A program made the translations under genes and the position numbers. Of a stretch of 64,000 bases of DNA, positions 3,933 through 33,508 are shown piece by piece; position 1 is the first letter of the stretch, and each line of letters opens with the position of its first letter. The notes under the pieces were generated by a model. The model was not told the origin of the DNA. It saw nothing but the letters and a program-made list of their open reading frames with translations, and searched no databases. The stretch comes from Streptomyces sp. SID3343 (GTDB taxonomy: Bacteria; Actinomycetota; Actinomycetes; Streptomycetales; Streptomycetaceae): NCBI RefSeq assembly GCF_009865215.1, contig NZ_WWJX01001556.1:1-64000 (forward strand), written 5' to 3'.

Positions 3933-4921
3933 ATGTTCCTCCGAAAGGCGTTGTGACCGGCGGCCCTTGGTGTGGTGGATGGGGTCGGCGCCGTTGGAGT
4001 GGCGGCCGGGGCGGTCGTGCGCGAGCGGGCCGTGTCTGCGGTGGAGGGCCGGGTCGGCGCGCTGGTCTTGGGGGCGACAATGGGAGCATCGCCCGGCTTC
4101 GGGGGGCGGGCGCGCGCGTGGTCGCCGGATCGCGGATCCTCGGCCGGAGCGGGTTCGCCACAATCAGGTGTCCAGCCGAGGGTGCGCAACGTGCTGTCCA
4201 AGGTGGCGTGGTCGCGCATGCTGCGGCGGATGATGTCTGCGGGGATGTGTGTCAGGCGTCCCCAGTCCTCCAGGCCCATGCGGCGGCCGAAGGCGGAGTG
4301 GGGCGTGCCGTCGCCCAGTCTCGCGCGGTTCTCGGGTTCCTCGGTGATGGCCTGCTCGGGGTCCCAGCCTGCGGCGAGCCGCTTGCGCAAGGTGGTCGTG
4401 GTGCAGCCCGCGCGCGCGTCGACTCCCCACCGGTACAACGCCTTTGTCTCGCCGAATGCGGTGAGCGGGAGGGCGAAATGGGGTCCGTCCGGCCCCTTTT
4501 CGAGGGCTTCGGTGAACGATAGGCCGGATTGGGTGATGCGGTTGTAGAGCGTGTGGTACTTGATGCCGCTCTGCTCCGCCCAGCCGTGCAGAGTCAACGT
4601 CCGGTCGTTGTGTGTGAACTCCAATGCCGGTTTCTCGTGCTTGGCGCGGGTGATCGCGGTCTCGGGCTCCCATCCCAGGGCGAGGCGGGTTCGAAGGGCG
4701 TCGCGTTTGACCGAGCAGCGGGTGTCGGTGGCCCATTCGGCCAGCGTCTTGCTCTCCCCGAACGCGAGGATGTCGCCGCGAGACCGTGTCCAGTCGTAGC
4801 GGTCCATCCGGGTGTCCCGGGGCCATTTGGGGCGCTTTCCCTGTGTGGTCGAGGGCTCCGGTTCTCGCGTGGGAAGGCTGTCTTCGGCGGTGGTGGGGCC
4901 CAGGGGTGGGATGTCGGTCAA
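3929..4921 (-). CDS. Tandem HTH-like repeat protein
   Basis: About 330 residues. Four related units of ~40 residues are visible near residues 52-92, 107-141, 154-193 and 209-252, with the pattern AFGE.K.L..W..D.RC.....LR.RLA.GW.PE.AIT. The pattern resembles the short helix-turn-helix-like units of NUMOD-type DNA-binding modules ('tLseWar..g....tl..Rl..Gw.pe.Al'). A DNA-binding role is therefore likely but is inference. Unit 2 is more degenerate. The start is TTG at 4921, which overlaps the TGA of the upstream gene and follows GGAAGG by 5 bases. The C-terminus is disordered, Ala/Pro/Thr-rich, and ends FRRNM. Translationally coupled to the DnaB-N-like gene. Confidence 0.65.
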   Translation of the reverse strand: MTDIPPLGPTTAEDSLPTREPEPSTTQGKRPKWPRDTRMDRYDWTRSRGDILAFGESKTLAEWATDTRCSVKRDALRTRLALGWEPETAITRAKHEKPALEFTHNDRTLTLHGWAEQSGIKYHTLYNRITQSGLSFTEALEKGPDGPHFALPLTAFGETKALYRWGVDARAGCTTTTLRKRLAAGWDPEQAITEEPENRARLGDGTPHSAFGRRMGLEDWGRLTHIPADIIRRSMRDHATLDSTLRTLGWTPDCGEPAPAEDPRSGDHARARPPKPGDAPIVAPKTSAPTRPSTADTARSRTTAPAATPTAPTPSTTPRAAGHNAFRRNM

Positions 4922-6051
4922 GGTCGCCTTCCGCTGCGGGGTCCGTGAGCGGCAGTTGGGTTGGTGGGGTCGGGGCCGGTCGTGGGCCATGTGGCGACGC
5001 CGGTGCACCAGGGTGTGGCGGTGGTGGTGGGCGGCGTGTGCGTGAAGGGCGCCTTGGTCGCTGTGATGGCGTTGTGTCGGCGGGCGAGGGCGTCGTCGAG
5101 CGGGGTCAGGGCGGTGCGTGCGGCGGTGACGAGTCGGGATGTCGAAAGCGTGGGGTCGCCGGCGTGGGTGCCGACGGCGGCGGCTGCGGAGGCGGCCGTG
5201 CGCAGGACGTACGCGCGCAGGACGCGTCGGGCCCGGTAGTCGACGTCGGCGGGCATTCCCGAGGTTGCGATGTGTGCGACGAGTTCGGGGGTGAGGCCGC
5301 CGTCGCCGGCGGCGAAGGCTCCTTGGTGTTGGGCCTCCCAGGCCAGCGTCAGCGAGTCCACGGGTTCGCCTCGGAGAACCAATGCGTGCACGCAGCGGTA
5401 GAGGGTGGCGTGTGCCGTGTCGGCGAAGTCCGCGGGGGTCAACCAGCGGCTGAGGGCGCTCATCGGTGCGGGGTCGAGGATCAGCGCTCCGATCAGGGCC
5501 TGTTCGTCGTCCAGGTTGCCCGGCAGCGGTGGTTCGGGGTTCAACTCGGGCGTCGGCACGGCGGGCGTCGACGTCGCGGTGTCGTGGTCGGGTCGGCGGC
5601 GGTGGAGGTCGTCCAGGACGCGGTGGAGGTGACGGTGGTGGGTGAGGGTGTCGGCGAGGCCGTCGCGGGCGTGGTCGGCGGCGGCGACCTGGCCGAGTCG
5701 CACGGCGTGTTCGCGGACGAGGCGGTGGTCGGCGGCCTCGACGATCATCCGCGCGTATACGAGCGCGTGGCGGGGGCGGGGGCAGGCGGCCATGAGGGTG
5801 TGGGCGTACACCGGGGTGATGCCGGCCGCGTGGGCGCCCGCGTCGCGCACGAGCGCCATGGTGCGGTCCGCCATCGTCAGTCCCGGGTCCGGCGGGCGAT
5901 CGAGCAGGGCGCGGTAGAGGGCGGCGTGCGCGGGCCGATACATGTGGTGGGGTCGCAGGTGCGGGCGGACGGAGTCGATGCGGGAGGGTTCGAGCAGGAG
6001 CGCGCCCAGCAGGGCCTGTTCCGCGAGGACGAAGGGCTGCGTTCCGGTCAC
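4918..6051 (-). CDS. Protein with two DnaB-N-like domains, no helicase domain
   Basis: 377 residues. Two copies of a DnaB N-terminal-like domain are seen. The first begins EQALLGALLLEPSRIDSV and contains HMYRPAHAALYRALL; the second begins DEQALIGALILDPAPMSAL and contains FADTAHATLYRCVHAL. DnaB N-domains bind primase and helicase partners; here no RecA-like ATPase follows, so the protein may act as an adaptor or decoy in replication (inference). GTG at 6051 overlaps the upstream stop (GTGA) and follows GGGGAAG. The tail is basic and low-complexity, ending RSGRRP. Confidence 0.65.
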   Translation of the reverse strand: MTGTQPFVLAEQALLGALLLEPSRIDSVRPHLRPHHMYRPAHAALYRALLDRPPDPGLTMADRTMALVRDAGAHAAGITPVYAHTLMAACPRPRHALVYARMIVEAADHRLVREHAVRLGQVAAADHARDGLADTLTHHRHLHRVLDDLHRRRPDHDTATSTPAVPTPELNPEPPLPGNLDDEQALIGALILDPAPMSALSRWLTPADFADTAHATLYRCVHALVLRGEPVDSLTLAWEAQHQGAFAAGDGGLTPELVAHIATSGMPADVDYRARRVLRAYVLRTAASAAAAVGTHAGDPTLSTSRLVTAARTALTPLDDALARRHNAITATKAPFTHTPPTTTATPWCTGVATWPTTGPDPTNPTAAHGPRSGRRP

Positions 6052-7008: not shown

Positions 7009-7940
7009 TCAGCGCACGGGGCGGGCTGGCGGTGGCGGTGGGCTGCTGGGCGGCGGTGTCGGCGCGGTCGGCGCTTTGAGGTCGACCCAGCTGGTCGTGC
7101 GTGTCGTTGCCCCTCGGGTCACCATGTGGTGCGGGCGGGGCGCAGGCGCTTCGCCCGGGTCGCGGTTGATGATGTCGGCGGCTAGGTTGAAGAGTTCCGC
7201 GGCGTAACCCAGGCGGTCGCTGTACGTGCCGTCTCCGAGGACCTGCGCGGCCCATCGGCCGAGGGCGTTGGTGAAGAGTGCGGCTTGCTGGAGGGCGGCG
7301 TTGATCTCCGCGGTGATGTCCGCCGTCTCGTCGGCGTTGAAGGAGAAGCCGAGTTGCTCGGTGAGGTCGGTGATGCGACGCTCCGCCTGACCGATGTCGT
7401 GGTCAGTCCAGGGGCGAGTGAGCAGGGAGGAATGGATGTCGACGTCGCAGCCGGCGACGCTCAGGACGCCGAGGGCAGTGCTGGCGATGCGAGCCCGCTG
7501 ATGACCGTCGGCTCCGTAGGGGGTGCGCCATACCTGGGAGTAGCTGCCGAGGGCGGCGGGTCGGAACCCGGACCGGCGCAGGACCAGTTCGACGAGATCG
7601 TCTGCGCCCACGGCGTGGGCCACGCCCAGAAGCGGGTCGTCGCGCATGACGACGGACAAGTGGTGGAAGTCGTCCGTGACGTGGAAGGACATCCTGTTCT
7701 GCGCGTACATGCGCGCGCTGATGTCCTGGCAAGCCTGGTGGACCCGGTCCGGGTTCACCAGGAACGGCTTGCCGTCCTCTCCGAGAAGTCGGCGTGCGGC
7801 AGCGCGGGCTCGTCGAGGTGGTTGATGACCCAGCCGATGTCGGGGCTGTCGGACGCGTGGACGTGGACGAGGGTCAGCGGCGCCCACGGATTGGCGTCCA
7901 GCGCTTCACCGGCGCTTCCGGTTGTGATGTCGGCGAACAC
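7009..7940 (-). pseudogene. AGF-module paralogue with internal deletion or frameshift
   Basis: A GTG at 7940 with GAGGAG just upstream opens a frame whose ~50 residues (LVHVHASDSPDIGWVINHLD, then EPALPHADF) align with the N-terminus of the paralogue at 12140-13351 (VDVLHDHTGSDGARLVDLVH, then LLHEPAL). The frame stops at 7755. Coding continues in another frame from GEDGKPFLVNPDRV, which aligns with GDDGRPFTMDRAGL about 75 residues further along in that paralogue. So the relaxase-like core is missing and the reading frame has shifted. The second part keeps a good module (LVLRRSGFRPAALGS ... VLSVAGCDVDIHSSLL) and a basic Pro-rich tail. A GTG overlaps the first stop (GTGA), so the halves may still be made as two coupled proteins. 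Confidence 0.6.
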
Positions 7941-8201: not shown

Positions 8202-9320
8202 TCACGCGGCGAGGTCGAGATCCTCGCGCACCGTGGGCACGTGCGGGGCGAGAAGGTGTCGTGCCAGAGCGGGGGGTACGGCGTTGCCGATCTGCTCGAA
8301 CACGCGGGAGCGTCCGCCCTGCCAGGGGTAGTCGGCGGGGAACGTCTGCAGCACACCGGCCTGCGCGATGGTGAGTCGCAGGTCGGGGCTGCGCGGCGCG
8401 ATCGAGGCCACCCGATGGAGGCCGCCGTGGTCGGCGGCCTCCCACCGGGATTCGTTGGCTCGATGTCCGAAGAAGAGAGTGGGCGCGGGTTCGTCAAGGC
8501 GTCGAATGGCCGCGTGTGCCTGAGAGTTGCTGCGCAACACCCAGCTTCGCGAGGTCCCGGTCAGCGCCCACGACGGGCGTTCGACGCCGAACTCGTTGCC
8601 GCCGTTGCCGCGCCGTCGTCCGCGGGTGTTGACGGTGGCGTCGGTGTCCCAGCCCAGGGCCTGGGCCATGGACACCCAGCGATCCCTGCCCGGGCCGAAC
8701 AGGGACGGGGGCTGTGCTGCGGCGGCGTGGGTGGGCTCCGGAGGTATGGCGGACCGGGTCCGGGAGGCGATCAGGATCGCCCTCCGTCGCGTCTGCGGGA
8801 TGCCGTAGTCGGCCGCGTTGACGAGCCCGACCCACACCGAGAATCCCCACCCGCGCAGGATCTGCGCGTACTGCTTCCACAGGGCGAGCACGTCCGGGAC
8901 CTCTTCCATGACGACCCATCCGGGTCTACCGGCGTGGGTGTGCAGGGCATGGAGGTAGCGCATCGGCTCGGCGGCGAGCAGGGACCGCTCGTCCTGACAT
9001 GCCGTCAGCAGGCGCTGCCTGCTGTCGATCCCGCGTGAGAGGTCGTCGACCGCCTGGTGCACGAGACCTTGATCGAGCAAGCCCAGCCGTTTGCCCGCCG
9101 TACTCCACGCCTGGCACGGGGGGCTGGCGATCAATCCGCTCACGTGGTCGAGGAACGGGCCGACGGGGTGGGCCGCGATGTCCGCGCGCAGCGTGGCGTG
9201 ACCGGCGGCGAGTCGGGTCGCGCACGCGGCCTCGTCCCACTCGATGCCCACGTCGAACGCGCCGAGTTCGCGCAGTCCCTGCGCCCATCCTCCGGGGCCA
9301 GCGAACAGGTCGAGGATCAC
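8202..9320 (-). CDS. DNA (cytosine-5-)-methyltransferase
   Basis: 372 residues. Ordered C5-methyltransferase motifs are present: SAM-binding ILDLFAGPGGWAQGLREL, catalytic SPPCQAWS with the nucleophilic Cys, MEEVPDV in place of the ENV motif, YGIPQTRRRAILIASR, and the C-terminal QTFPADYPW ... FEQIGNAVPPALA. The target-recognition part lies around residues 190-290. GTG at 9320 overlaps the stop of the PAPS-reductase-like gene (GTGA), so the two are translationally coupled. No endonuclease is adjacent, so this is an orphan methyltransferase, perhaps protecting the element from host restriction or acting with its coupled partner. Ends DLDLAA, without the basic tail of the accessory set. Confidence 0.9.
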   Translation of the reverse strand: MILDLFAGPGGWAQGLRELGAFDVGIEWDEAACATRLAAGHATLRADIAAHPVGPFLDHVSGLIASPPCQAWSTAGKRLGLLDQGLVHQAVDDLSRGIDSRQRLLTACQDERSLLAAEPMRYLHALHTHAGRPGWVVMEEVPDVLALWKQYAQILRGWGFSVWVGLVNAADYGIPQTRRRAILIASRTRSAIPPEPTHAAAAQPPSLFGPGRDRWVSMAQALGWDTDATVNTRGRRRGNGGNEFGVERPSWALTGTSRSWVLRSNSQAHAAIRRLDEPAPTLFFGHRANESRWEAADHGGLHRVASIAPRSPDLRLTIAQAGVLQTFPADYPWQGGRSRVFEQIGNAVPPALARHLLAPHVPTVREDLDLAA

Positions 9321-10240
9321 GCGGCCTCCCCGAAATCCTCGCGGATAGGGGAGCCGGAGCGGCAGGCCCACGGCGAGCAGCCGTCCGCGTCGCCGGACTC
9401 GAGTTCGGCGTCGGCGACTGCGTCGAACACATCGCCTTGGCGCGCCCGCCATTCGTGGCTGGTCACGCGGTCGATCGGGGCGATGGACAACGGCAGCAGG
9501 CTGCGATGCAGATACGCTTCACCGAGCAGCGGCTTGCCTTCGGCGTTGGCTCTGGCATTGCCCGCGCGGATCGCGGCATCGAATTCGACGACGTCGAGCC
9601 ACTCGTCCGGCGAATCGTCCCGGAGAGCCCTCCACTGATGGTTTCCGTGGTACGGACAACCCAGGCAACTGGATTTCGGTGTATCGCCGAATCCCCTGGC
9701 TCGCAGGAGACGCTGGCAATCGGCGCGCGTGTATCCCAGGTCGAGCAGAGGGTGAACACTGCGCATGTAGTTGATACCGCTGGCCTTGGCACGGTGGATC
9801 TCGTCGACCGAAATTCCGATCCACTGCTCCACGAATACACTGCGGGGAACCGGCATCGGATGCGGAAACCCCAGAAGCTCCCTGACCTGGCGTTTGATAG
9901 GCTTCAGCTTGTATTCCGACGTGCATTGACGCCTCGTCAGCCCGGCATTTCCGTCGGGGTTGCGAATGTGCAGTGGCATCGAGGCGAACCGGTGGTGGGG
10001 ATCGAGCGCATCGGTTCTGATGTTTCCGGAGGAGACACGCAGGATGGGAATTCCCGCCGGTTTCGCGATCTCTCGTTCGATGCGATCCAGATGGGAATAC
10101 ACGGTTTTCGGCTCCCAGCCGGTATCACTGAAGATCGCATAGTCGAGGCGGGGCAGATGGCCTTCGGCCGCCAACAGGAGGCACGTGGTGCTCTGGACTC
10201 CGGCGCCGAGGCTGAGAATGCGCAGGGCGGGGGTGCTCAT
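9317..10240 (-). CDS. PAPS reductase-like (adenine nucleotide alpha hydrolase) protein
   Basis: 307 residues. The N-terminus ILSLGAGVQSTTCLLLAAEG is the PP-loop variant of PAPS-reductase-like ATP pyrophosphatases found in phages and mobile elements; FSDTGWEPKTVYSHLDRI follows as in that family. Cysteines in RRQCTSEYKLKPIKRQ and KSSCLGCPYHGN could hold a metal or carry sulfur. The family includes true PAPS reductases and DNA-modification enzymes such as DndC; which reaction this one performs cannot be read from sequence. It is sandwiched by 4-base overlaps between the coupling protein and the C5 methyltransferase, which points to a role in DNA modification or transfer rather than sulfate assimilation. 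Confidence 0.8.
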   Translation of the reverse strand: MSTPALRILSLGAGVQSTTCLLLAAEGHLPRLDYAIFSDTGWEPKTVYSHLDRIEREIAKPAGIPILRVSSGNIRTDALDPHHRFASMPLHIRNPDGNAGLTRRQCTSEYKLKPIKRQVRELLGFPHPMPVPRSVFVEQWIGISVDEIHRAKASGINYMRSVHPLLDLGYTRADCQRLLRARGFGDTPKSSCLGCPYHGNHQWRALRDDSPDEWLDVVEFDAAIRAGNARANAEGKPLLGEAYLHRSLLPLSIAPIDRVTSHEWRARQGDVFDAVADAELESGDADGCSPWACRSGSPIREDFGEAA

Positions 10241-12024
10241 GCGGTCTGCCCGAAGTCGTCGCGGACGGTGGAGAGCTTGGCCAGGGCGCGTTCGGTGATC
10301 GCGGCCGTCGCGCGGGCGGAGGCGGCGCCGAGTTCCTTCGCGGCGGGTTCCTTGTACCAGGGCTTGAGGTCCAGCAGGGCGGGGCGGATGCCGGTCGCGA
10401 ACATCAGGGCCTGGCCCTTGGGGAGCGCCCTGACCGCGTCGGCGGCCAGAATGCGCTCCTGGCGCATCGACGTCGATGTGGATTTCCCCGACTCGGAGGA
10501 CGAATACGACACGGTCTTGACGTCGTGGTCGCCGATCAACCTGGAGAGTTTGTCGGCGAAGTCGGCGTCGTCGATTCCGCTACCGATGACCTTGATGGTG
10601 GCGGCGCTCCACAGCGCGTCCATCCCGGCCTCGCCCCACACGCGAACGCCCTGGCGGTAGGACTGGAGAATGCAGATGGGGATGACCCCGCGACTGCCCA
10701 GGTGGCTGTACAGATCGGGGAGGTCGCTGATCTTGCAGACGTTGGCCGCCTCGTCGAGGATCGCCAGGCACGGGGCGTCCAGGCGCCCGCCGGAGCGTTC
10801 GGCCTGGATGACGGATGAGCGCATGACGGCGTCGGCCGCGGCGGCGATCAACGCGGATGCGCTGCCGCCACCGTCCTTGGACAGCAGGAACAAGGTGTCG
10901 CGGCTGTTCGCGAAGTCGGCGGGCTTGAACTCCGGCAGGTCCTCGTGCGGGGTCACCCACGCGGCGATCTCGGGGTCCAGCAGGCACGCGGCGTACTGGC
11001 GCGCGGTCTCGTAGATGCCGTCCCGGGTCTCGACGGCGCCGGAGACGGTGCCCTGCAGTTGGGCGGCGACGGCGTCGAGTCCGGCGTCCTGAAGGGTGTC
11101 GACCGGAGTGCGGTCGGCGGGGCTGGCCAGCCATGCCAGGACGTCGGTGATGGGCCGCCCGTCGCGGGCGGCGGCCAGGAACAGAGCGCACAGGGTGTTC
11201 TGCGCGGCGGTGGACCAGAAGTCGCCTTGTGAGGACTCGTCGACGCTGGCGCTGACGAAGTGGCCGGCGAGCCGCCGAGCGCCGGCCAGGTCGCGGGCGT
11301 CCGCGAGGATGTCCCACCACATCTCGCGTTCGGCGTGCGCGATCTGCTGGGGGTCCATCGTCCACACGGTGCCGACGTTCGCGCGGGCGTCCAGGGTGGC
11401 GGTGTACGCGTCGCCGGCGGCCTTGTTGGAGGTCAGCAGTACGGGGCCGGGAGCGCGGAGCATCGCGGGGATGGCCAACCCGGAGGTCTTGCCGCTGCGC
11501 GGAGCCATGATCGCAAGGATCACGTCCTCCCAACTGGAGCGGACTTCGCGGCGCGACGGCGCGAGCGTTCCGAGGAGGACACCGCGGTCGTCGTCCGGAA
11601 TGTCCTTGGGTACGACGTCTTTCAGGCTCGGCCGCAGGGACTGGGCCTTGACGGTGATCTCGGGGTCCATGAGCGAGGAGAGTTCACGGCGGGTGGCGAG
11701 GCCGTCGGTGGGCTTCCTAAAGCGGGAGTGGATCTTCAGGCCCAGGACGCCGGCGACGGCGAGCACCACGGCGGGGAGCACGTAACAGGTGGTGATCAGC
11801 ACGGCGTGCGGCAGATGCGGCCAGACGGCGGCTGGTCCCGTGATCGCCGTCACGGGCTCGTACGGGGCCCAAGGGCCCTCGACGATAACCGAGTTGGCGA
11901 GGTTCCCGAACAGCCAGCCAGAGCTCCCGGCGGTGAACGCCAGAGCGGTGGCACCGCCCATGAGATACAGGAGGGCGTCGATGCCGGGGGTGGAGGACGG
12001 GGCGGAGGCGCGTGGGGACGACAA
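10237..12024 (-). CDS. VirD4/TraG-type coupling protein
   Basis: 595 residues. Two N-terminal membrane segments (about residues 20-48 and 74-96) precede a FtsK/VirD4-like ATPase. Walker A is MAPRSGKTSG at about 173-182 and Walker B is LAILDEAANV. Family features such as SRDTLFLLSKDG and LYSHLGSRGVIPICILQSYR are present. Coupling proteins are inner-membrane hexamers that feed the relaxase-DNA complex and protein substrates to the type IV secretion channel. Start TTG at 12024 follows GGAG by 10 bases. The gene overlaps the PAPS-reductase-like gene by four bases. It lies 16 kb from the other transfer ATPases, with the paralogue array between them. Ends DDFGQTA, no basic tail. Confidence 0.93.
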   Translation of the reverse strand: MSSPRASAPSSTPGIDALLYLMGGATALAFTAGSSGWLFGNLANSVIVEGPWAPYEPVTAITGPAAVWPHLPHAVLITTCYVLPAVVLAVAGVLGLKIHSRFRKPTDGLATRRELSSLMDPEITVKAQSLRPSLKDVVPKDIPDDDRGVLLGTLAPSRREVRSSWEDVILAIMAPRSGKTSGLAIPAMLRAPGPVLLTSNKAAGDAYTATLDARANVGTVWTMDPQQIAHAEREMWWDILADARDLAGARRLAGHFVSASVDESSQGDFWSTAAQNTLCALFLAAARDGRPITDVLAWLASPADRTPVDTLQDAGLDAVAAQLQGTVSGAVETRDGIYETARQYAACLLDPEIAAWVTPHEDLPEFKPADFANSRDTLFLLSKDGGGSASALIAAAADAVMRSSVIQAERSGGRLDAPCLAILDEAANVCKISDLPDLYSHLGSRGVIPICILQSYRQGVRVWGEAGMDALWSAATIKVIGSGIDDADFADKLSRLIGDHDVKTVSYSSSESGKSTSTSMRQERILAADAVRALPKGQALMFATGIRPALLDLKPWYKEPAAKELGAASARATAAITERALAKLSTVRDDFGQTA

Positions 12025-12139: not shown

Positions 12140-13351
12140 TCAGCGGCTGCGGCGCGAGTCGCCGACGGTCGGCGGCGTTGTGGGTGAGGCGGGAGTTGCC
12201 GTCACGACAGCGGTGTGGGCCCTGGTCGCCGTGGTTGCCGTGGCGGCTCGGGTTCTGCCGATGTCTTCGGCGTGTGATCCGCCCGCGCGCATGCTCTGGG
12301 CGACGGTGCCCAGTTGCTGCACGTCGCGGAACAGGTTCTCGGCACTGGCGTGGATGCGGTTCGCCAGAGCGGGGTCGCCGAGCTGGTATCGACACCAGGA
12401 GGCCAGTCGGTCGGTGGTGACCCACAGTTCGGCAAATGCGCCGCGTTGGGGGTCGTAGAGCCGGTCGGCGATCGCGGCCCCGTCTTCGGCGGTGGCGCAG
12501 GAGTCGAGGAGGTCGCCGAGGTTCGCGATCGCCTCGCCCGGGCGAGGGATCGGCCCGGGGGTTTCGGCGTGGACGGCCAAGGCCGGGTCGACGGTGACGG
12601 TGTATCCGACGGCCGTGAGCATGGCGCTCGCGCGGTCGGCGAGGCGGGTGCGTTCGGCCTGATCGGCTCCGTAGGGGGTGCGCCAGAACCCGTCGGGGTT
12701 GTTCCGGAACCCGTCGGGGGTGTCTGCGTACCTGTGTTGCCAGCCGGCACGGGTCAGGAGTTGCCCGGCGAGTGCGTCGCCGCCGTATGCGTGTGCCGCC
12801 CCGTTGTCCCGGTCGCGCATCACCACAGTCGACGCCCGCGGGTGGCGGGCGAATTCGTCCTGCCCGGGCGGGAGGAAGCGGTCCTGCTCGGTGATGTCCT
12901 CGGCGAGGACGCGGCAGGCGTCGTTCAGGCCGGCTCGGTCCATGGTGAAGGGGCGTCCGTCGTCGCCGACGGTGGCGGCCAGCAGGTGCACGGTGCGGCG
13001 GGCATAGTCGTGCACGGCCGCCCAGCGCACGATGGTGTCGCCGTCGGCGCCGACGAAACCGGCGGCTGTCGCGAGGTGGCGTGCGACCTCCCGCCATTCC
13101 GTGTGCACGAGTTCGGGCGGACCGTATGGTTGCGCCACCGTCACGTGCCACGCGGTCCGGCCGCCGGCGGGGCTCGTTTTCTGGTGTTGCCGTCGAAGGG
13201 CGGGCTCGTGGAGGAGGTGGACCAGGTCGACCAGGCGCGCCCCGTCCGAGCCGGTGTGGTCGTGGAGGACGTCGACGTAGTCGAGGTCGGCGGCGGCGAG
13301 GTCGAGCATGTCGTGGGCGCTTTCGCGGTGTCGAACGTGGTTGATGAACAT
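12140..13351 (-). CDS. Relaxase-derived AGF-module protein 1
   Basis: 403 residues in two parts. Residues ~1-150 align with the N-terminal nuclease domain of the relaxase at 50157-51905: AWHVTVAQ (relaxase VWHCSVRA), HTEWREVARHLATAAGF (relaxase DQEWGDIARRIVAATGI), and YARRTVHLLAATVGDDGRPF against DDHIHIIANLVREDGRRP. Only the second histidine (H122) of the HxH motif remains; the first is Thr. The C-terminal half has the repeated module: LLTRAGWQHRY ... WRTPYGADQAERTRLAD ... LTAVGYTVTVDPALA. The tail ends GDSRRSR. ATG follows GGAG by 6 bases. A catalytically dead relaxase relative that may still bind the element's DNA or transfer partners (inference). Confidence 0.7.
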   Translation of the reverse strand: MFINHVRHRESAHDMLDLAAADLDYVDVLHDHTGSDGARLVDLVHLLHEPALRRQHQKTSPAGGRTAWHVTVAQPYGPPELVHTEWREVARHLATAAGFVGADGDTIVRWAAVHDYARRTVHLLAATVGDDGRPFTMDRAGLNDACRVLAEDITEQDRFLPPGQDEFARHPRASTVVMRDRDNGAAHAYGGDALAGQLLTRAGWQHRYADTPDGFRNNPDGFWRTPYGADQAERTRLADRASAMLTAVGYTVTVDPALAVHAETPGPIPRPGEAIANLGDLLDSCATAEDGAAIADRLYDPQRGAFAELWVTTDRLASWCRYQLGDPALANRIHASAENLFRDVQQLGTVAQSMRAGGSHAEDIGRTRAATATTATRAHTAVVTATPASPTTPPTVGDSRRSR

Positions 13352-13375
13352 GGCGGCTCCGCGTCAGGTCGTGGG

Positions 13376-14311
13376 TTATCGGCTGCGGCGCATGGCGCCC
13401 GACGAAGGTGTTCCGGTCCGCAGGGACGTGGCCGCGGCCGGTCGCGGGCGATGGAACGGGGAGGGCGCAGGTGCGGCCGGCTGCGAAGCGGTGGCCGGAC
13501 GGTGCCGTCCGGCCGCCTTGGCGGCGCGCGAGAGCCCCGCGTCTAGGCGCACGTCGTAGCCGAGGGCGTTGAGTTCCTTCGCAGACGTGAGGGCGCATGT
13601 GGTCAGGCCGTCCGTGTCGGTGCCGTAGCGGGTGCGCATCCATCCGTCGTCGAACGCGGTGCGCTGGAGTTCGAATCCGTTGCCGAGCAGGATCGCGCGG
13701 GCGAGAACGTCACCGCCTTCGGCCGTGACCACACGGCTCGTGTGGGAGCGCAGGACCACCGTGGCCGCCCCCTCGATGGTGTCTGCGGACGAGACCAGCG
13801 GGCTGCGGTCGAACGCGTCCTGGGCATTGAGTTCGCCGGTGATGGCCCGAACTTCGTCGAACACGCGCTGGTTGGTGGCGGGGAGAGGGGGCCTGCTGCC
13901 GTTGCGGCGGGCCGTGGTGGCGAGCAAATGCAGGTCCTCCGAGCTGCGGTTGCGCACGGCGATCCACGGACAGCCGGGGCTTGTGGCGGGCTCGTCGAAA
14001 CCGGCGGCGGTCAGGACGCGCCGCGCCACGAAGGTCCACTCGGCGTCGGCGAGTCGGCGACTCCCGGGATTCTGTTCGAGGACGCAGTGCCATACGGGGG
14101 CATCGACGCGGGCACCGATGAGGGACGAGCGCGCCGACAGTTGCACGTCGAGGTCTTTCGCGAAGGTGAGCGGATCGTCCGTGTCGGTCCGAGGACGGCC
14201 GGTGTTCGCGTGGACCAGGGTCGGTCGCGGCGAGAGCGGCCGGAAGGCGGGCCCGTAGAGATGGTCGACCGCGTCCTGCGCGTCGGTGTGGAACCGGGTG
14301 GTGGCGTACAC
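13376..14311 (-). CDS. Relaxase-derived AGF-module protein 2
   Basis: 311 residues and the copy closest to the relaxase. VDHLYGPAFRPL matches LAYLYGPGKAEE around the relaxase tyrosine (first Tyr replaced by His). VWHCVLEQ matches VWHCSVRA, DAEWTFVARRVLTAAGF matches DQEWGDIARRIVAATGI, and GCPWIAVRNRSSEDLHLLA matches GCRWVAVRHADDHIHIIA. The first metal histidine is thus Asp while H128 is kept. The C-terminal module is LARAILLGNGFELQRTAF ... LNALGYDVRLDAGLS. The tail ends AMRRSR. Start GTG at 14311 has only a weak ribosome site. Function unknown; not expected to cut DNA. Confidence 0.7.
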   Translation of the reverse strand: MYATTRFHTDAQDAVDHLYGPAFRPLSPRPTLVHANTGRPRTDTDDPLTFAKDLDVQLSARSSLIGARVDAPVWHCVLEQNPGSRRLADAEWTFVARRVLTAAGFDEPATSPGCPWIAVRNRSSEDLHLLATTARRNGSRPPLPATNQRVFDEVRAITGELNAQDAFDRSPLVSSADTIEGAATVVLRSHTSRVVTAEGGDVLARAILLGNGFELQRTAFDDGWMRTRYGTDTDGLTTCALTSAKELNALGYDVRLDAGLSRAAKAAGRHRPATASQPAAPAPSPFHRPRPAAATSLRTGTPSSGAMRRSR

Positions 14312-14353
14312 GTCGAAGTCCGTTCGGCAAGGAAAGGGCCGGGTTCGTGGCGG

Positions 14354-15298
14354 TCAGCGTTGGGGGCGCGTCGCCGCGGGGGGCGCGGTAGAGCACACCA
14401 TCGGTGCAGCGACGAACCCGCTGCCGTCGGTGCCTGACTCGGGCGGGCGGGGCCCGACGGTCGTTGCCGCGTAACCACCGAAGCGCTTCGCGGCTGGGGT
14501 GTGGTCCTGGGCGAGGGAGGCCCGGTAGTCGAGGGGGACGCGGGTGTACGCCCCGGTGACGGTGTAGCCAGCGGCACGCAGGAAGGTGTCGGCGACGACG
14601 GCGATCTGCGTGTGTTCGTCACTGTCGGCGGCGTGGGGGACGCGCCAGGCGCTCCGACCGGTCGGGGAGGTCGTGTGCTCGAACCCGGCGTGCGCGAGCA
14701 GGAGGCCAGCGAGTCGGTCTGCGCCCTCGGCGGTCACCTCGAAGGGGACCCGGTCGTGGAGGTCGACGGTCATCGGCTGGGTCCGTATGGAGTGAGGGGC
14801 AGGTCGGACGCGGCCGAGTCGGCGGAGCATGTAGAGCTCACCGTCGAGGGCGTCGAACTCGTCGAGGTAGTCGTGCACGGACGGGACGAGGAGGGTGGCG
14901 TCCAAGCGCGCGGCTGCGGCCACCAGGTGCACGGCGTGGGTGGCGTGGTCGCGGAGCAGGATCCACGGGGTTGCCAGCCGCCCGAAGCCGGACTCCAGAC
15001 CGGCGGAGTCCGCGACGCGGTGCGCGATGTCGGTCCACGCCCTGTCGCCGAGTACGTTGCCGACGGTGGTGTCGCCGAGGAGGAAGTGCCACGCGGGTTG
15101 CACGGGCGTGCCGGTGTGGCGTGCGTATCGTGCCGCCGGTCCGGCGATGGCGTCGGCGAGTTCGGAGTGGTCGGTGCCCAGTCCCGCGATGGGGGACGAG
15201 GTGGCCTGGTTGTGGATGACGCGTAGGCCCGAGACCGTTTGCGTGGTGTCGTGGTCGAAGAGGTCGTGAACGAAGGTGCGAACGATCTCGCCGTACAC
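14354..15298 (-). CDS. Relaxase-derived AGF-module protein 3
   Basis: 314 residues. The N-terminal half keeps the relaxase-like landmarks in weakened form: AWHFLLGD, DRAWTDIAHRVADSAGL, and TPWILLRDHATHAVHLVA where the relaxase has HIHIIA (first His replaced by Ala, H124 retained). The C-terminal module is LAGLLLAHAGFEHTTS ... FLRAAGYTVTGAYTRV. The tail ends TRPQR. Start GTG at 15298 follows GAAAGG. Same strand and spacing as its neighbours, so probably co-transcribed. Confidence 0.65.
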   Translation of the reverse strand: MYGEIVRTFVHDLFDHDTTQTVSGLRVIHNQATSSPIAGLGTDHSELADAIAGPAARYARHTGTPVQPAWHFLLGDTTVGNVLGDRAWTDIAHRVADSAGLESGFGRLATPWILLRDHATHAVHLVAAAARLDATLLVPSVHDYLDEFDALDGELYMLRRLGRVRPAPHSIRTQPMTVDLHDRVPFEVTAEGADRLAGLLLAHAGFEHTTSPTGRSAWRVPHAADSDEHTQIAVVADTFLRAAGYTVTGAYTRVPLDYRASLAQDHTPAAKRFGGYAATTVGPRPPESGTDGSGFVAAPMVCSTAPPAATRPQR

Positions 15299-15352
15299 GG
15301 CGGGTGGCCTTTCGTGGCAGGTCGTCGGATGGCGCGTTCGGTCGTGGCGTGG

Positions 15353-16234
15353 TCAGCGCCGACGCCGGGGGGTCGCGACGGCGGGTGCGAGCGCGACGCC
15401 GGGTGCGTCGGGGGTGATGGTGTGTCGTCGGGAGCCTTGGGTGGGGTGGGTAATGCGGCTGTGTGCTTGGGCGGATCGGGTGACGCCCAGGGCCGGGTCG
15501 ACGCGCACGATGTAGCCAGCGGCGGTGAGGCGGTGGCGGGTGGCGCGGGCGAGGTCGGTGATCTCGCTCGGGCCTGCGCCGAACGGGCTGTGGTACCAGG
15601 TGTCCTCGTACCGGGGGCCGGGGATCCACGCGAGGTCGCGGATGTGTGCGGCGATGTCTTTGTTGTGGGCGGCGAGGGTGACGAATCGGTCGGGGTGGGC
15701 GGCGACGAGTACGACGTCGGCTTCGCGGGGGATGTGCGGGTCGGCGTCCGCGAGCCGGGTCAGGACGTCGGCGAGTTCGCGGCACTCGGCGAGGACTCGG
15801 GAGTTGTCGACCTCGCGTGGCTCCTCGTGGAAGGCCACGAGCGAGGCGATCAGGTGCACCGTGTCGAGGTTTTCCCGAACGAGGATCCAGGGGCAGTCGC
15901 TGCTGTCCGGTCGGCCCGCGAGGCCGGCGGCCCGCAGGACGTGTGTACCGACGGCGCTCCACTCGCGGTCCGTGAGCAAATGCGAGCGGCCGTGCCGGCG
16001 AAGTGCGCAATACCAGGTCGTGTCGGTGTTCTGGAGGTCGTCGCGGTCGATGCGGTACAGGGAACCGGGTAGGTCGATTGCTCGTGCCAGGCGATCGCGT
16101 GTGTGATCGCACCAGGGGGCGGTGCCGGAGCGGTCCGCGGTGGCGGCGTCGTGGATCACTTGCATGGGGGCCGGATTGCCGCGCCGGTCGGTGAGGAGAT
16201 CGAGGACGTCGCGGGTGTCGGCGATGGTGGACAT
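15353..16234 (-). CDS. Relaxase-derived AGF-module protein 4
   Basis: About 293 residues. Relaxase-like N-domain: TWYCALRRHGRSHLLTDREW (relaxase VWHCSVRAAATDRVLTDQEW), VLRAAGLAGRPDSSDCPWIL, and LDTVHLIASLV in place of DDHIHIIANLV (first His is Thr; H127 kept). The C-terminal module is more divergent in its first half (IRDLAWIPGPRYEDTWYH) but normal in its second (LTAAGYIVRVDPALG). It ends ATPRRRR. ATG at 16234 is chosen as the first start consistent with the family N-terminus; the open upstream part is Pro-rich noise. Confidence 0.65.
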   Translation of the reverse strand: MSTIADTRDVLDLLTDRRGNPAPMQVIHDAATADRSGTAPWCDHTRDRLARAIDLPGSLYRIDRDDLQNTDTTWYCALRRHGRSHLLTDREWSAVGTHVLRAAGLAGRPDSSDCPWILVRENLDTVHLIASLVAFHEEPREVDNSRVLAECRELADVLTRLADADPHIPREADVVLVAAHPDRFVTLAAHNKDIAAHIRDLAWIPGPRYEDTWYHSPFGAGPSEITDLARATRHRLTAAGYIVRVDPALGVTRSAQAHSRITHPTQGSRRHTITPDAPGVALAPAVATPRRRR

Positions 16235-16277: not shown

Positions 16278-17564
16278 TCAGCGCTTGCGCGGTCGGGGTG
16301 CGGCGGTGCCCGTGGGTGTCGACGTCGCGGCGGCGGTGGTGGTGAGTGAGGTGGGTGAGGGCGCCATGCCTTGTGTGCGGGTGCGGCGGGTTGCGGTGGG
16401 CGTGGGGAGGTGAGGGCCTTCGTGGGCGGCGCCGACTTGGCGGGAGATGTCGAGGACGTTCCACCCACGCTCGTATGCGCCTTGATCGGCGAGGTGCCAG
16501 GCCAGCTCGTCGAGGCACTCTCGAACGCGCTGGACCGTGCCGTCGTGGTCCAGGAGCAGGTGGGTAAGGGTCGGGGTGTCGGTTCGGACGTCGTCGCGGA
16601 GGCGGTCGACGACGTCGGCGATGGCCGGTGCCATCCAGGGCCCCAGGTGCGAGTTCCGACCGGCCAGCAACCCGGGGTCGACGTGCACGGTGTGGCCGAT
16701 CGCGGTGAGCAGGCGGGTGGCCTGTGTGCACCGTTTCTGCACGAGCCATTCCGCGCTGTCGGGCGGGAGTTGGTGTCGGTCGGGGGCGAACGCGGACTCG
16801 GCGAAACCGGCTCGTTCCAGCAGTCGTGCCGCTGTGTGATCGGCCCCGTGGGCCACGACCAGTCCGTTGTCGTCGCGAAGTTCCACTTCGGGAAGTGCGG
16901 CGTTGGGGGCGCTTCGCGTCGTGGCGGGTGTGGTCTTCGCTGGCACGTGGAACCCGCGCAGGGCGTAGAGGAGGCGGGCGGTCTCGGTCGCGGCCGTGGT
17001 CATGCCGGCGGCACGGCGGATGCGCTCGGCTTCCTTGTGGTGGCCCCGGGGGAATTGGCGTTGCCTGAGGGTGTCGAGGGTGTCGTTGACGCGGGTGAGC
17101 AGGCCGTGGCCGGGGTCGAGGAGGCAGTGGGTGAGGCTGGCCACGTCGGCGGGCCCGGGAAGGGACTGGATGCCCTCGACCGTGGCGATCAGGGCTGCCG
17201 TCGACAGGTGAGGAAGCAGGTCGTTCTCGGGCTCGAACAGGTGGCCAGCGACGGTGACGGGGTAGTCGGCCGCGGCCACTGCGGCGACGGCGCGGGCGCA
17301 TTGGGCGAGGTCGTCGTGGGGGTCGCCGGAGGTCAGGGAGTATTCGCGGTCGAGTGGACCGGAGTTCGTGGTTTCGCCGAAGCCGGCGGCGAGGAGGACG
17401 TCCCGGGAGATCCCGATGCCTCCTTCGGCGATGGGTTCGCGGTCCGGGGCGCGGCGGCTGATCAGGACGGCCGGGTCGTAGGCGCTCTCGTAGTCGATGG
17501 GATGCCACTTGGTTTGGCGCAGGTGGGCGCTCGTGGGCCGGCCGTACAGGGGGTGATCGGTCAT
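16278..17564 (-). CDS. Protein with two AGF modules
   Basis: 428 residues. The first module is near residues 35-110 (RDVLLAAGFGETTNSGP ... VAAADYPVTVAGHLF). A second, better one is in the C-terminal half (TAARLLERAGFAESAFAP ... LLTAIGHTVHVDPGLL). Between and after them are helical stretches (DVASLTHCLLDPGHGLLTRV; QRVRECLDELAWHLADQ). No relaxase-like domain is apparent. The tail is Thr/Pro-rich and ends PRPRKR. ATG at 17564 follows GGAAGAG. Confidence 0.6.
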   Translation of the reverse strand: MTDHPLYGRPTSAHLRQTKWHPIDYESAYDPAVLISRRAPDREPIAEGGIGISRDVLLAAGFGETTNSGPLDREYSLTSGDPHDDLAQCARAVAAVAAADYPVTVAGHLFEPENDLLPHLSTAALIATVEGIQSLPGPADVASLTHCLLDPGHGLLTRVNDTLDTLRQRQFPRGHHKEAERIRRAAGMTTAATETARLLYALRGFHVPAKTTPATTRSAPNAALPEVELRDDNGLVVAHGADHTAARLLERAGFAESAFAPDRHQLPPDSAEWLVQKRCTQATRLLTAIGHTVHVDPGLLAGRNSHLGPWMAPAIADVVDRLRDDVRTDTPTLTHLLLDHDGTVQRVRECLDELAWHLADQGAYERGWNVLDISRQVGAAHEGPHLPTPTATRRTRTQGMAPSPTSLTTTAAATSTPTGTAAPRPRKR

Positions 17565-18741: not shown

Positions 18742-20541
18742 TCAGCGTGTTCTGCGGATGGCGTCTGTGGCCGCCGTGGCGATGGCGACGGGAGCGCTGG
18801 AGGGCTGGGTCAGGTGCAGCAAGGTGGTCCCCGGCAAGTGGCGGGACTTTGCGGTGAGGGTGAGCTGGAGTACGGCGCAGCCGGCGGTCGTGAGCTGCTT
18901 GACGCGGGTGACGGCTTGAGCGGTTTCGTCGGGGGTATAGACGGCGTCGGTGACGATCACGAGGAGGCGGCCGGCGCCGGGGCGGCTGAGTTCGAGGCCG
19001 TGGTCGAGTGCGTCGATGGCGTCGCCGAGGTTGTGGCTGCGGCCGTTGGCTTTGACCGTCGTCACGCGCTCTGGTGCTCGGTGGGTGGGTCGGGTCAATG
19101 CGGTCAGGTGCGTGTCGTAGGCGATGGTGGCGGTAAGGGAGTCGGGGTCGGTGAGGGCTGCCGCGCGTGCCACGATCCAGGCAGCGGACGCGACGGGCGC
19201 GCAGGCGGCACTCATGGAGCCGGAGACGTCGACGGCGATACCCACACGCAGCGGTGGGGTGGGCGAGCTGCGGCGGCGGGTGTGGGTGAACGGCTGTGCG
19301 GTGGGGACCGACCCGGCCGCGCGCTGGGCGTCGCGGGCGAGGGCGGCGCGCATGTTGAGGCGGCCGGGCGGGGTGGGGCTGGTGGTCCGCTCCTCGGTCC
19401 GCTCGCGGTAGGCGGCGGCACGCAGGGCGCGGCTCAGGCGCGCGGCGGCACTCTGCTCGGTGGCGGTGGGCCTGCGGGTGCCGGTGACCGGGTTGCCGTG
19501 GGGCGCCGGTGTGCCGTCGGGGTTGACGGTGGTGCCGCCGGCGTTGAACACGCTCTTGGCGATGGTGGCGGCTTTGCGTCGCCGGCCGGCCCGCTGGGCG
19601 CGGTCCTGAGCCTGCGCCTTGGACCGCGCGGCCGTGGCGGTGGTCGCTGCGGCCTGTGCCGCGAGGTCGGCGGCGTCGGTGGCTGCCGTGCTGTCCATGA
19701 CGACCCCCACGGCGCCGGACAGCAGATCGGTGAGGTTCTCCGGCACGGGCAGGGCGAGGGCCGCGGTGTCCAGGGCGTCGCACCAGTCTTGAGCGTGGGC
19801 GAGCATGGTCGTGGCGTCGTGGTCGGCGCACCGGTGGGCTGCGGTCCAGATGCGGGCGAGTGTGGCCAGCAGGTTTGCGCCCAGCACCTTTTCGCACAGA
19901 TCGGCGACGGCCCGGGATTCGCCGGCGTCCAGGATGCCGACGTCACGGCGGCCGAGGACCAGGGCCGCCACGGCGGCGGCGTGCTCGATGCCCTGGAGGG
20001 TGGGCTGGGCGACGTCGGGCATGACCAGGGTTCGGGCACTGGTGCGCAGGTACGTGCGGTCCGTGGGACGCGTGCTCAGGTGTGCGCCTTCGACGCGGCT
20101 CTCCTCCAGCAGGAGCGCGGCCTCGACGACACGGGGGTTCGCTCCGGCCGGCGCCGTCCAGACGGAGTGGGCCGCGTGCGCGGCCTCGTGGACGAATACT
20201 CCCCAGGCGGCGGGATACCTCTCCTCGTCGCCCACGATCCGCGGATGGATCTCGTGGGGCTGGAGCGGGGCGAACAGCGTGGCGTCGAACTCGACCTCGC
20301 CCAGAGTGGGGAAGAACGCGGCCGGTGCGCCGCTGCGCGTGCCGGGGCGGCAGGTGACGAGGAGGTCTTGGCGGCCGGAGAGGGCGACCAGCCGATCGCC
20401 GAGTTCGGCTCCCACGCGCAGCCACGCGTCCGGGGAGGAACGGGGTTGCGCGGGCGGGGCGCCGTCGTCGTCCCATCGCGCGAGGTCGGCGTCGTCGTCC
20501 GGCGTGGTGGCCAGAGACTGGACGTGGTGGTGGGCGCTCAT
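18742..20541 (-). CDS. VWA-domain protein with HExxH-like motif (MoxR partner)
   Basis: 599 residues. An N-terminal region contains a zinc-metalloprotease-like motif VFVHEAAHAAHSV (HEAAH) with a downstream LLLEESRVEGAH. A central Ala/Arg-rich linker follows. The C-terminal von Willebrand A domain has the MIDAS motif IAVDVSGSMSAA and further metal positions near IVTDAVYTPDET. Its ATG overlaps the stop of the MoxR-type ATPase. MoxR/VWA pairs act as chaperone-like complexes that remodel or insert cofactors into other proteins. A HExxH-VWA combination is consistent with the metallopeptidase-like members of that class. It ends AIRRTR. Confidence 0.8.
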   Translation of the reverse strand: MSAHHHVQSLATTPDDDADLARWDDDGAPPAQPRSSPDAWLRVGAELGDRLVALSGRQDLLVTCRPGTRSGAPAAFFPTLGEVEFDATLFAPLQPHEIHPRIVGDEERYPAAWGVFVHEAAHAAHSVWTAPAGANPRVVEAALLLEESRVEGAHLSTRPTDRTYLRTSARTLVMPDVAQPTLQGIEHAAAVAALVLGRRDVGILDAGESRAVADLCEKVLGANLLATLARIWTAAHRCADHDATTMLAHAQDWCDALDTAALALPVPENLTDLLSGAVGVVMDSTAATDAADLAAQAAATTATAARSKAQAQDRAQRAGRRRKAATIAKSVFNAGGTTVNPDGTPAPHGNPVTGTRRPTATEQSAAARLSRALRAAAYRERTEERTTSPTPPGRLNMRAALARDAQRAAGSVPTAQPFTHTRRRSSPTPPLRVGIAVDVSGSMSAACAPVASAAWIVARAAALTDPDSLTATIAYDTHLTALTRPTHRAPERVTTVKANGRSHNLGDAIDALDHGLELSRPGAGRLLVIVTDAVYTPDETAQAVTRVKQLTTAGCAVLQLTLTAKSRHLPGTTLLHLTQPSSAPVAIATAATDAIRRTR

Positions 20542-21740
20542 CGCGAGTGGCCCCGGTGTGCGGTGCCGGTGCTGCCCGGGGGCTGCCGGACGGCCGAGGC
20601 GGGAAGCTGCTTGCCGAGGGTGAGCGGGGCGACCTCCCTGACGCCGGCAACCTTGACGACGGCAGCGGCGACGGCGTCGCGATCCTCCACAGGAGCGATG
20701 CCGACCAGGTTCGCGAGCGCGGCTTTGGTGCCGAGGACGGCCTCGGTCTTCTGATAGCTGAGCAGCTCTCGCAGTTGGGGGGCCCAGCCCAGCTCACCCA
20801 GTTCGACTTGGTGGGCGAGGTGTCGGGCGACCCGGACCACCCGGGCATCGATCCTCAAGGCCAGGGCGAGGTCGTAGTCCGTGCCGATCTGGATCTGCAC
20901 GCTGAACCGGCTCGCGAGTGCCTCCGTCAGAACGGCCCCGTGGACGCCGGGATTGTGGCCCGCCACCACGTAGAAGCCGGGCTCGGCCTTGACGGTCTCG
21001 CCCTTGTGGGCCTTGACCTGGATCTGTCGGCGCCCGTCCATCGCGGGATACAGCGCCGCCAGGACCTTGGGTGAGATCAAGGTGGCATCGTCGATCAGCA
21101 GGGCACGGCCCTCGGTCATCGCGGTGACCAGCGGACCGTACTGGAAGACGTAGCCTCCGCTGTCAGCCTGCGTGTACTCGCCGATCAAGTCGCCGACCGT
21201 GGTGTCGCCGTCACCGGCGACGGTGAGCAGGTCCGGGAACGCCGCCTCCACCAACGACGTCTTGCCGGTGCCCGGAGGACCGTAGAGCAGCAGCGGCACG
21301 TCGGCGTCGCGCAGGCGATTCAGAGCGTCGACGTCGGGCAGATCGGCCAGCTCCCGGGGGTGGTAGAGCTGGCCCCCCGCGCGGCGGATCGGGCCGGTCT
21401 GCCTGGGCGCTGCTGCGGGAATGGTCGTGCGGGCCGTGGCCGCCGGGGCGCGGGCAGGGTGGGTGCCCGGTGGGCTGATCACAGCGGTCTGCGCGGCTGC
21501 GGCGGTTTTCGCGTTCGCGCGGAGCTCCGGTTGTCCGGTTCCGCCTTGGTCGGCCTCGCCGCGTCGTACCAGGGTGAGGGCGGCGTTGCGGACGGCGCCG
21601 TGGGAGTGGCCCACCTGCCTGGCCATGTCCCCGATGGTGAACGTGTCCGTCGGCCGGTCGGCCAGCAGTCGGGCCACCTTGGCCCGGAGTTCGCCGCCCC
21701 TGGTGCGCGCTGGACCGGTAGGCGTTCCGGGTGTGGTCAA
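20538..21740 (-). CDS. MoxR-family AAA+ ATPase with N-terminal HTH
   Basis: 400 residues. Residues ~10-65 look like a winged-helix (FTIGDMARQVGHSHGAVRNA). The AAA+ domain has Walker A LLYGPPGTGKTSLVEA at about 152-166, Walker B RALLIDDATLI (DD rather than the usual DE), and the MoxR features GPLVTAMTEGRA and AEPGFYVVAGHNPG with sensor/arginine region ALASRFSVQI. MoxR/CbbQ-type ATPases work with VWA partners; the partner follows with an ATGA overlap. Start TTG at 21740, preceded by AAGGGG. Why a conjugative array should carry this pair is unclear. Ends RGHSR. Confidence 0.85.
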   Translation of the reverse strand: MTTPGTPTGPARTRGGELRAKVARLLADRPTDTFTIGDMARQVGHSHGAVRNAALTLVRRGEADQGGTGQPELRANAKTAAAAQTAVISPPGTHPARAPAATARTTIPAAAPRQTGPIRRAGGQLYHPRELADLPDVDALNRLRDADVPLLLYGPPGTGKTSLVEAAFPDLLTVAGDGDTTVGDLIGEYTQADSGGYVFQYGPLVTAMTEGRALLIDDATLISPKVLAALYPAMDGRRQIQVKAHKGETVKAEPGFYVVAGHNPGVHGAVLTEALASRFSVQIQIGTDYDLALALRIDARVVRVARHLAHQVELGELGWAPQLRELLSYQKTEAVLGTKAALANLVGIAPVEDRDAVAAAVVKVAGVREVAPLTLGKQLPASAVRQPPGSTGTAHRGHSR

Positions 21741-29803: not shown

Positions 29804-29805
29804 CT

Positions 29806-30276
29806 CTACTTCTCCTTCGTGCGGTGGGCCGGTCCCGGTGCGCTCTTGCGCAGGTCGGCGGGTGTGGCGTGGCGGCGGACTCGGGTCAGGGCGCCGATGT
29901 GGCGCTGGCACACGGTCAGTTCCGGTGCGCCTTCGGGGGTTCGGCGGTGGCAGACGTCGCGGTCGGGGGTGGCGCCGTCGGTGTGGGGTGCGTGGTGGTA
30001 GGCGTGGTGGAGTTGTTCGGCGGCCTGCCACAGGTGGGTGCGGGCGGCCTTGAGGTGGTCGCCCTCGGCGGCGGCGATCGGCGCGGTGCGGGTGGTGTGT
30101 GCGTCGATCAGGTGGTGCAGGGCGATCAGGTGGCCGTGGAGGTCGTCGAGTTCGCGGCGGGTGGCGGCGCCGGTGAGGCCCGGGAGGTCGACGGTGCGGT
30201 GGCAGTCGAGGGCGATGGCGGCGAACAGGAGGAAGTTCGATTCCGGCGCGTCTGGCTGCTGTGGGGTGCGGGGCAT
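29806..30276 (-). CDS. Unknown small protein between T4SS ATPase genes
   Basis: 156 residues, His-rich and helical (ELDDLHGHLIALHHLIDAHT; LWQAAEQLHHAYHHAP), followed by VCHRRTPEGAPELTVCQRHI with two spaced Cys. No membrane segment and no family recognised. Lies 2 bases before the ATPase start in the transfer operon. Ends RTKEK. Confidence 0.6.
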   Translation of the reverse strand: MPRTPQQPDAPESNFLLFAAIALDCHRTVDLPGLTGAATRRELDDLHGHLIALHHLIDAHTTRTAPIAAAEGDHLKAARTHLWQAAEQLHHAYHHAPHTDGATPDRDVCHRRTPEGAPELTVCQRHIGALTRVRRHATPADLRKSAPGPAHRTKEK

Positions 30277-30320
30277 GGCGTCCGTCTTTCGCGGTGGGGG
30301 TGGGTGACGGCGCGTCAGCG

Positions 30321-31781: not shown

Positions 31782-31871
31782 GGGGTGGTTCCTTCGACGG
31801 ATGGTCGGCGGGGCGGGGCCGTGCCCGCCGCCGCGTCATCGGCGGCGGACACGGCGATCGGGTGGCGTCCG

Positions 31872-33479: not shown

Positions 33480-33508
33480 GGGGATTCCTCCTTTCTACGT
33501 GGGCGGGG

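Follow-up and report, generated by a model that had tools for sequence, protein, structure and literature searches.

Substrates of the Agrobacterium VirB/D4 system carry a C-terminal arginine signal (Vergunst 2005, as cited in PMC10025392 and PMC3297438), and VirD4-type type IV secretion system (T4SS) effectors of Bartonella and Xanthomonas carry BID and XVIPCD domains of ~100–120 residues, XVIPCD with a Gln-rich tail (PMC10025392). Excerpts of a study on the F plasmid pED208 report that it transfers ParA, ParB, SSB, PsiA and PsiB along with TraI (PMC8406263). Here we analyze a 64,000-nucleotide stretch of Streptomyces sp. SID3343 (contig NZ_WWJX01001556.1, positions 1 to 64,000; hereafter, the window), in which four consecutive genes, c1 to c4, encode relaxase-family proteins that have lost the nuclease site, directly beside the coupling-protein gene traG; many unrelated proteins of such elements end in a shared bipartite tail. 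The window is a conjugative element: traG, a T4SS block, and a relaxase with its MobC/NikA partner are all present. Genes were called with a home-made gene caller, and those at issue are as follows.

12140-13351, minus strand: c1, relaxase-like domain (RTVHLLA, HxH lost), second domain and helical C-terminal part; ends RRSR
13376-14311, minus strand: c2, relaxase-like domain (SEDLHLLA; His replaces the motif-I Tyr) and second domain; ends RRSR
14354-15298, minus strand: c3, relaxase-like domain (HAVHLVA) and second domain; ends RPQR
15353-16234, minus strand: c4, relaxase-like domain (DTVHLIA) and second domain; ends RRRR
16278-17564, minus strand: c5, without a relaxase domain, two second-domain-like stretches (blastp to the second domain of c1); ends PRKR
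10237-12024, minus strand: traG, VirD4-type coupling protein (PF12696, E = 1e-32; PF02534, E = 2e-21), directly downstream of c1
50157-51905, minus strand: the element's true relaxase (PF03432, E = 1.8e-8), HxDDHIH intact; basic end EHRR
51902-52558, minus strand: MobC/NikA-like relaxosome protein (PF21983, PF05713)

The genes c5, c4, c3, c2, c1 and traG follow one another on the minus strand with gaps of 24–115 bp. Within this series, c1 to c4 form an operon-like run with 24–55 bp between genes, and 115 bp separate c1 from traG. The start of c4 is the ATG at 16234, a longer open reading frame beginning at 16468 being unnecessary. The product of c5 is 43% identical to that of 29565-30869 on C143, a contig of the same genome that belongs to a second, related element.

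A sequence-only reading of the window had proposed that the four genes begin with a domain resembling the nuclease domain of the relaxase, and this was borne out over the whole length of the domain. Local alignment of the copies to the relaxase, scored against shuffled sequences, gave z = 17 for c2, 15 for c4 and 7 for both c1 and c3, and blastp against the same protein returned E = 6e-14 for c2 and E = 9e-9 for c4. The profile–profile comparison likewise found the N-terminal domains homologous to relaxases: a profile of the degenerate family, containing no true relaxase, and one built from 33 true relaxases were aligned by hhalign across 167 columns, with a probability of 100% and E = 4e-45. 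The WHC, EW and W.A.R landmarks are conserved in c1–c4. After residue ~170, the four proteins share a second domain, which elsewhere occurs alone or duplicated, as in c5. Searches of c1–c4 against Pfam, PHROG and NCBIfam gave no noteworthy match, and the Pfam Relaxase model, whose gathering score is passed by the true relaxase, did not match them at E ≤ 1. No Pfam domain was detected in c1–c5 at E ≤ 1, so neither XVIPCD nor BID was found. A PDB sequence search with both profiles returned nothing relevant, tblastn of c1 found no match among viral contigs, and the same search against plasmids gave three weak matches only.

The active site is lost. In the true relaxase, the metal motif reads H124-A-D-D-H128-I-H130 (HxDxHxH), of which c1–c4 retain only the equivalent of H130. 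The motif is broken in all 48 related non-relaxase proteins as well, none of which has both His of HxH; as judged by eye, the last His is present in about 30 and missing in about 18. The earlier proposal that the second His is always kept and the first always lost is thus correct for c1–c4 but not for the family, since these roughly 18 of 48 relatives lack the second His, as does the sister copy at C143:22403-23608. The motif-I tyrosine (LLAYLYG) is lost in c1–c4 and in the four C143 copies, and it is retained in most 425-residue Streptomyces relatives. In c2, whose HLYGPA had been set opposite YLYGPG of the relaxase as a preserved feature, it is precisely this tyrosine that is replaced, by His. 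Since MobM uses a His nucleophile, this residue, together with the tyrosine kept in Streptomyces orthologues, might be taken to indicate active nucleases with altered chemistry and other metal ligands. Yet none of H124, D126 and H128 is retained and the copies show no common replacement, and we regard residual nuclease activity of this kind as highly improbable.

Structure prediction was in keeping with this relationship. An AlphaFold2 model of c2, computed with 30 relatives and no true relaxase in the alignment, reached a predicted local distance difference test (pLDDT) score of 85 and a predicted template-modelling score (pTM) of 0.78. When this model was searched against the PDB with Foldseek, MobM relaxase structures ranked highest by query-normalised template-modelling (TM) score, with E = 0.19, probability 0.57, and TM-scores of 0.37 by query and 0.46 by target for 4lvm_C. 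For comparison, the true relaxase of the window was modelled likewise and retrieved the same MobM entries (E = 0.18, probability 0.72, TM-score 0.53), although the degenerate family was part of its alignment and this control is therefore only partly independent. The order of strands and helices is identical in the two models. Because neither model found a Foldseek match at E < 0.001 in the PDB, the case for the fold depends on how closely c2 parallels the true relaxase: the predicted fold of c2 appears to resemble a MobM relaxase at the same level as the true relaxase does (E ~0.2 for both), a level that is weak in absolute terms.

We then turn to how widely such proteins occur beside traG. 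A TraG scan yielded 80 loci from Streptomyces, Kitasatospora, Streptacidiphilus and others, all Streptomycetaceae. A degenerate relaxase-domain protein is present in 31 of these 80 loci and two or more in 9, and either this domain or the second domain alone occurs in 58. Every one of the 40 relaxase-domain genes is on the strand of traG and upstream of it, 0.16–6.1 kb away. The commonest form is a protein of ~425 residues with 'MIAHLQRASNTAGLLTYLYGPGERG...RNQPRQVHVVATLAR', accompanied by a neighbor of 169 residues consisting of the domain only; at L119:4560-5069 and similar loci, this neighbor is a degenerate relaxase domain without motif His or tail that adjoins the two-domain protein. An expanded degenerate set inside one element, as the sequence-only reading had described, is therefore real here but not confined to it, the family being widespread near traG in Streptomycetaceae.

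In seven close Streptomyces pairs, the ratio of nonsynonymous to synonymous substitution rates (dN/dS) was 0.21–0.56, which points to maintained proteins. The degenerate family is thus under purifying selection and holds a fixed position just upstream of a VirD4-type gene. This selection largely refutes the notion that the copies are decaying relics of ancient relaxase duplications, which also has to face four intact frames per element and a position kept in 31 of 80 loci. What speaks for decay is a fifth copy that is clearly broken and a dN/dS of 0.84 between c1 and C143:22403, at near-saturated divergence; on balance, we give decay very little credence. The broken copy is

7009-7940, minus strand: decayed fifth copy, with a frameshift and an internal deletion removing the core of the nuclease domain

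and shares 75% DNA identity over ~560 bp with the C143 copy, its intact relative lying at C143:21206-22360.

The copies had been considered derivatives of the element's own relaxase, and this part of the sequence-only reading found no support. A tree was computed from 84 domains. In it, one branch separates the 36 true relaxases (support 90/88; recovered in 99% of bootstrap trees) from the degenerate proteins, which lie outside on long branches. c2 pairs with C143:20138-21142 (100/99), c1 groups with C143:21206 and C143:22403 (100/94), and c3, c4 and C143:28319 form long, unplaced branches; the long branches make finer placement unsafe. As c2 has an orthologue on the sister contig, the copies had already multiplied before the genome's two elements separated. 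By the tree, then, the copies form older lineages and did not arise lately from the element's own relaxase. The second element is split over contigs C143 (L009/L018), C149 (L011/L021) and C624 (L012/L022), and the end of C149 and the start of C624 fall inside one relaxase gene with an identical overlap. On C143, traG is 78% identical to that of the window, and the four relaxase-like copies adjoin a large polyketide-synthase-like gene.

Many unrelated proteins of these elements end in the same way, with R-x-x-A-A-x-A-R-S ~40 residues from the end, a variable linker of ~30 residues and a final Arg cluster. We quantified this with an 11-column profile (A-R-V-x-A-A-[LR]-A-R-S-T) trained on the DnaB-N-like family alone (60 sequences), with a cutoff that 1% of shuffled tails exceeded. 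Among 1162 proteins from other families, the tails of 17.3% matched the profile, vs. 0.3% of 334 chromosomal proteins from 20 segments, and in the region from -150 to -75 of the same 1162 proteins the figure was 0.1%. When whole proteins were scanned, 194 of 228 matches lay 34–46 residues before the stop, compared to none of 8 control matches; for the zone from -30 to -50, Fisher's test gave p = 2e-22, a statistic that ignores relatedness among proteins. At least 25% of members are tagged in fourteen families, and none in most T4SS structural families and TraG. Across twenty further regions from other genomes, 40 of 330 proteins were tagged, most at 34–45 residues. Basic C-terminal ends occur in 31% of element proteins vs. 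10% of chromosomal controls. Annotation of Streptomyces angustmyceticus plasmid p1 by the Prokaryotic Genome Annotation Pipeline (PGAP) confirms the tagged ends of DnaB-N, winged-helix and two hypothetical proteins. The motif was absent from the proteins examined on the more distant plasmid pNO33. Another traG clade (L165, L174, L175, L180) has Arg-rich ends with a different upstream motif, e.g., 'ITAARAATWAR', which may be a variant tag.

Codon usage within the motif matches that of the gene bodies, which indicates that selection acts on the protein and not on a DNA repeat, and thereby rules out a DNA-repeat (cassette-end) origin of the tails. Composition alone was excluded by the shuffles, the chromosomal controls and the fixed spacing. 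An unsupervised expectation-maximization search from random seeds caught homologous structural families and did not generalize, and the seeded single-family model was used instead. A DNA pattern for the motif gave 8 matches in 15 whole genomes, one of them near traG, too few to use. Neither this tail nor the dead relaxase family turned up in the open-licence literature that we searched, and the shared bipartite tail on unrelated element proteins is new here.

Within the window, tails or parts of them are found on the following proteins.

38051-38809, plus strand: tagged protein, function unassigned; motif at -40, above the 1% threshold
38806-39267, plus strand: tagged ParE-toxin-like protein (PF05016); motif at -37
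40730-41575, plus strand: tagged DUF317/SPDY protein (PF03771); motif at -39
43122-44504, plus strand: DUF317/SPDY protein (PF03771); tail SRAAVARNRTT and basic end, below the strict threshold; in the training set of the lineage model
45661-46686, plus strand: protein with tail TRAAAAISRTT at -41; ends PRHRR
4918-6051, minus strand: DnaB-helicase N-terminal-domain protein (PF00772, E = 3.5e-27); basic end only, its relatives carrying the clearest tag

The plus-strand genes from 38051 to 47732 constitute a second expanded set, comprising DUF317/SPDY proteins, small DUF317-like fragments, and ParE-like and HxlR-like proteins, many of them tailed.

We also analyzed relaxases as possible bearers of the tail; a genome-wide relaxase search employed a consensus-like, non-natural query, of which only the matches were used. 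Among 31 distinct relaxases, 9 passed the strict threshold, with the motif at -37 to -48, and most end basic. Within the 20 kb around eight tagged relaxases, we found genes of the integrase, replication and MobC types but none resembling traG; the island examples were confirmed by PF00589, DUF3631 or DnaB, MobC and Relaxase. These loci look like integrative mobilizable elements that need the channel of another element, and island relaxases sharing the ending of proteins of integrative and conjugative elements (ICEs) are the best hint that TraG may read the tail.

Taken together, we favor the view that c1–c4 are dead relaxase-family members of the traG module and serve as protein cargo or docking partners of the TraG-gated T4SS, with a probability of about 0.55; the translocation is what we infer from the sequences. 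The N-terminal domain would bind transfer DNA or the relaxosome without nicking, the basic C-terminal tail would be recognized by TraG, and the proteins would be delivered with the T-strand complex, or docked on it, through the TraG-gated T4SS. Their tail would be the counterpart of the bipartite signal on unrelated element proteins and mobilizable-island relaxases. Indeed, in 24 Streptomyces dead relaxases both ends of the tail are conserved around a variable linker, and most Streptomyces members appear to have a tail of this kind. The cargo role already raised in the sequence-only reading thus gains indirect support from the shared tail. A broader proposal, which we advance tentatively and hold to be slightly below an even chance, is that Streptomycetaceae elements ship a dozen or more unrelated tagged proteins via TraG (dead relaxases, DnaB-N proteins, ParE-like toxins, helix-turn-helix [HTH] regulators and DUF317 proteins) and that islands borrow the channel by means of tagged relaxases.

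Several observations weigh against export of the dead relaxases. Their Arg ends are the only part of the tail that is certain in c1–c4; a lineage-specific tail model gave no significance for c1, c3 and c4 (p = 0.12–0.16), for which reason we downgraded the claim of a tag on the four proteins, and the best match in c2 lies at -23, the wrong spacing. Only 26% of the dead-relaxase family pass the strict model, the 169-residue paralogue with the relaxase domain only is untagged, tagged relaxases belong mostly to one clade (implying few acquisitions), and most ICE-encoded relaxases carry the basic end but lack the motif. The lack of a strict tag on the window copies and the untagged paralogue next door in many loci, as well as the cotranscription-like arrangement with traG, would suit relaxosome accessories or regulators that bind oriT, the relaxase or TraG, tune transfer and stay in the donor, the tail only binding DNA. 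We consider such a donor-side role the less likely one, because tail conservation in the family is sequence-specific and spaced, and the tail is common to non-DNA-binding families and to mobilizable islands without a T4SS. More doubtful still is that the relaxase scaffold was recruited outside DNA processing, e.g., as a toxin, for anti-defense or for channel adhesion, whether delivered or not. The ParE-like toxin, HTH regulators and DUF317 proteins among the neighboring tagged proteins, and the strong divergence seen in the long branches, are compatible with such recruitment, but no protein-family or defense model matches c1–c4, and the conserved WHC, EW and W.A.R landmarks suggest that a DNA-binding core has been retained.

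The remainder of the element was inspected as well. The T4SS genes, which have annotated counterparts on S. angustmyceticus p1, lie together:

28307-35864, minus strand: T4SS structural block, with VirB4-like ATPase, SCO6880/PrgI/EccE-like, TrbL/VirB6-like and NlpC/P60 genes; untagged

Directly downstream of traG (8202-10240, minus strand) is a C5-cytosine DNA methylase gene with an SspD-like (PAPS-reductase family) gene, a pair that is kept on C143 and possibly has an anti-restriction function. At 18742-21677 (minus strand), a 599-residue protein with a weak VWA match and an AAA_5 ATPase are encoded, nearly unchanged in Streptomycetaceae loci such as L104, L164, L178 and L179. A further contig, C298, matches window 16035-64000 with 100% identity before switching to unrelated DNA at C298:48764 (window 16034), inside c4; this could be a branch in the assembly or a genuine variant without c1–c3 and traG.

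If the favored view of dead, exported or docked relaxases holds, the DNA-nicking relaxase domain has a large inactive sister family beside the coupling-protein gene. Gram-positive conjugative elements would then carry a readable address label for protein cargo, so that cargo lists could be predicted from sequence, and this would hint at how a helper channel might select mobilizable islands. It would also give direct access to the signal that a VirD4-type protein recognizes in Actinobacteria, a group for which the searchable literature has little on T4SS substrate recognition.

Compared to known systems, c1–c4 are closest to MOBP relaxases (MobA/VirD2-like, PF03432), one of which is encoded by the same element, with full-length homology of the N-terminal domain, the same order of secondary-structure elements and a basic C-terminal end. 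In contrast to these relaxases, they have lost the metal triad and the motif-I Tyr and match no Pfam model, they have a second domain where the MOBP relaxase has a long helical C terminus, and they adjoin traG, whereas the relaxase adjoins mobC. MobM (PDB 4lvm and others) is the best long TM-score match of both c2 and the true relaxase; it is an active nuclease of a different MOB family (MOBV), with 10–13% sequence identity. The proposed export resembles pED208 in that a conjugation system would send several maintenance proteins besides the relaxase, although the excerpts of that study describe no shared tag and no dead relaxases. Like BID and XVIPCD, the tail is a portable C-terminal module on unrelated proteins of a VirD4-type T4SS, but it comprises only about 45 residues, mostly linker, and has no Pfam match. 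The Agrobacterium signal is likewise an Arg-rich basic C terminus on unrelated proteins served by one VirD4-type protein; the tail described here, for which translocation is predicted, differs in having a further conserved motif that lies at a constant distance, ~40 residues, ahead of the end and in belonging to actinobacterial elements.

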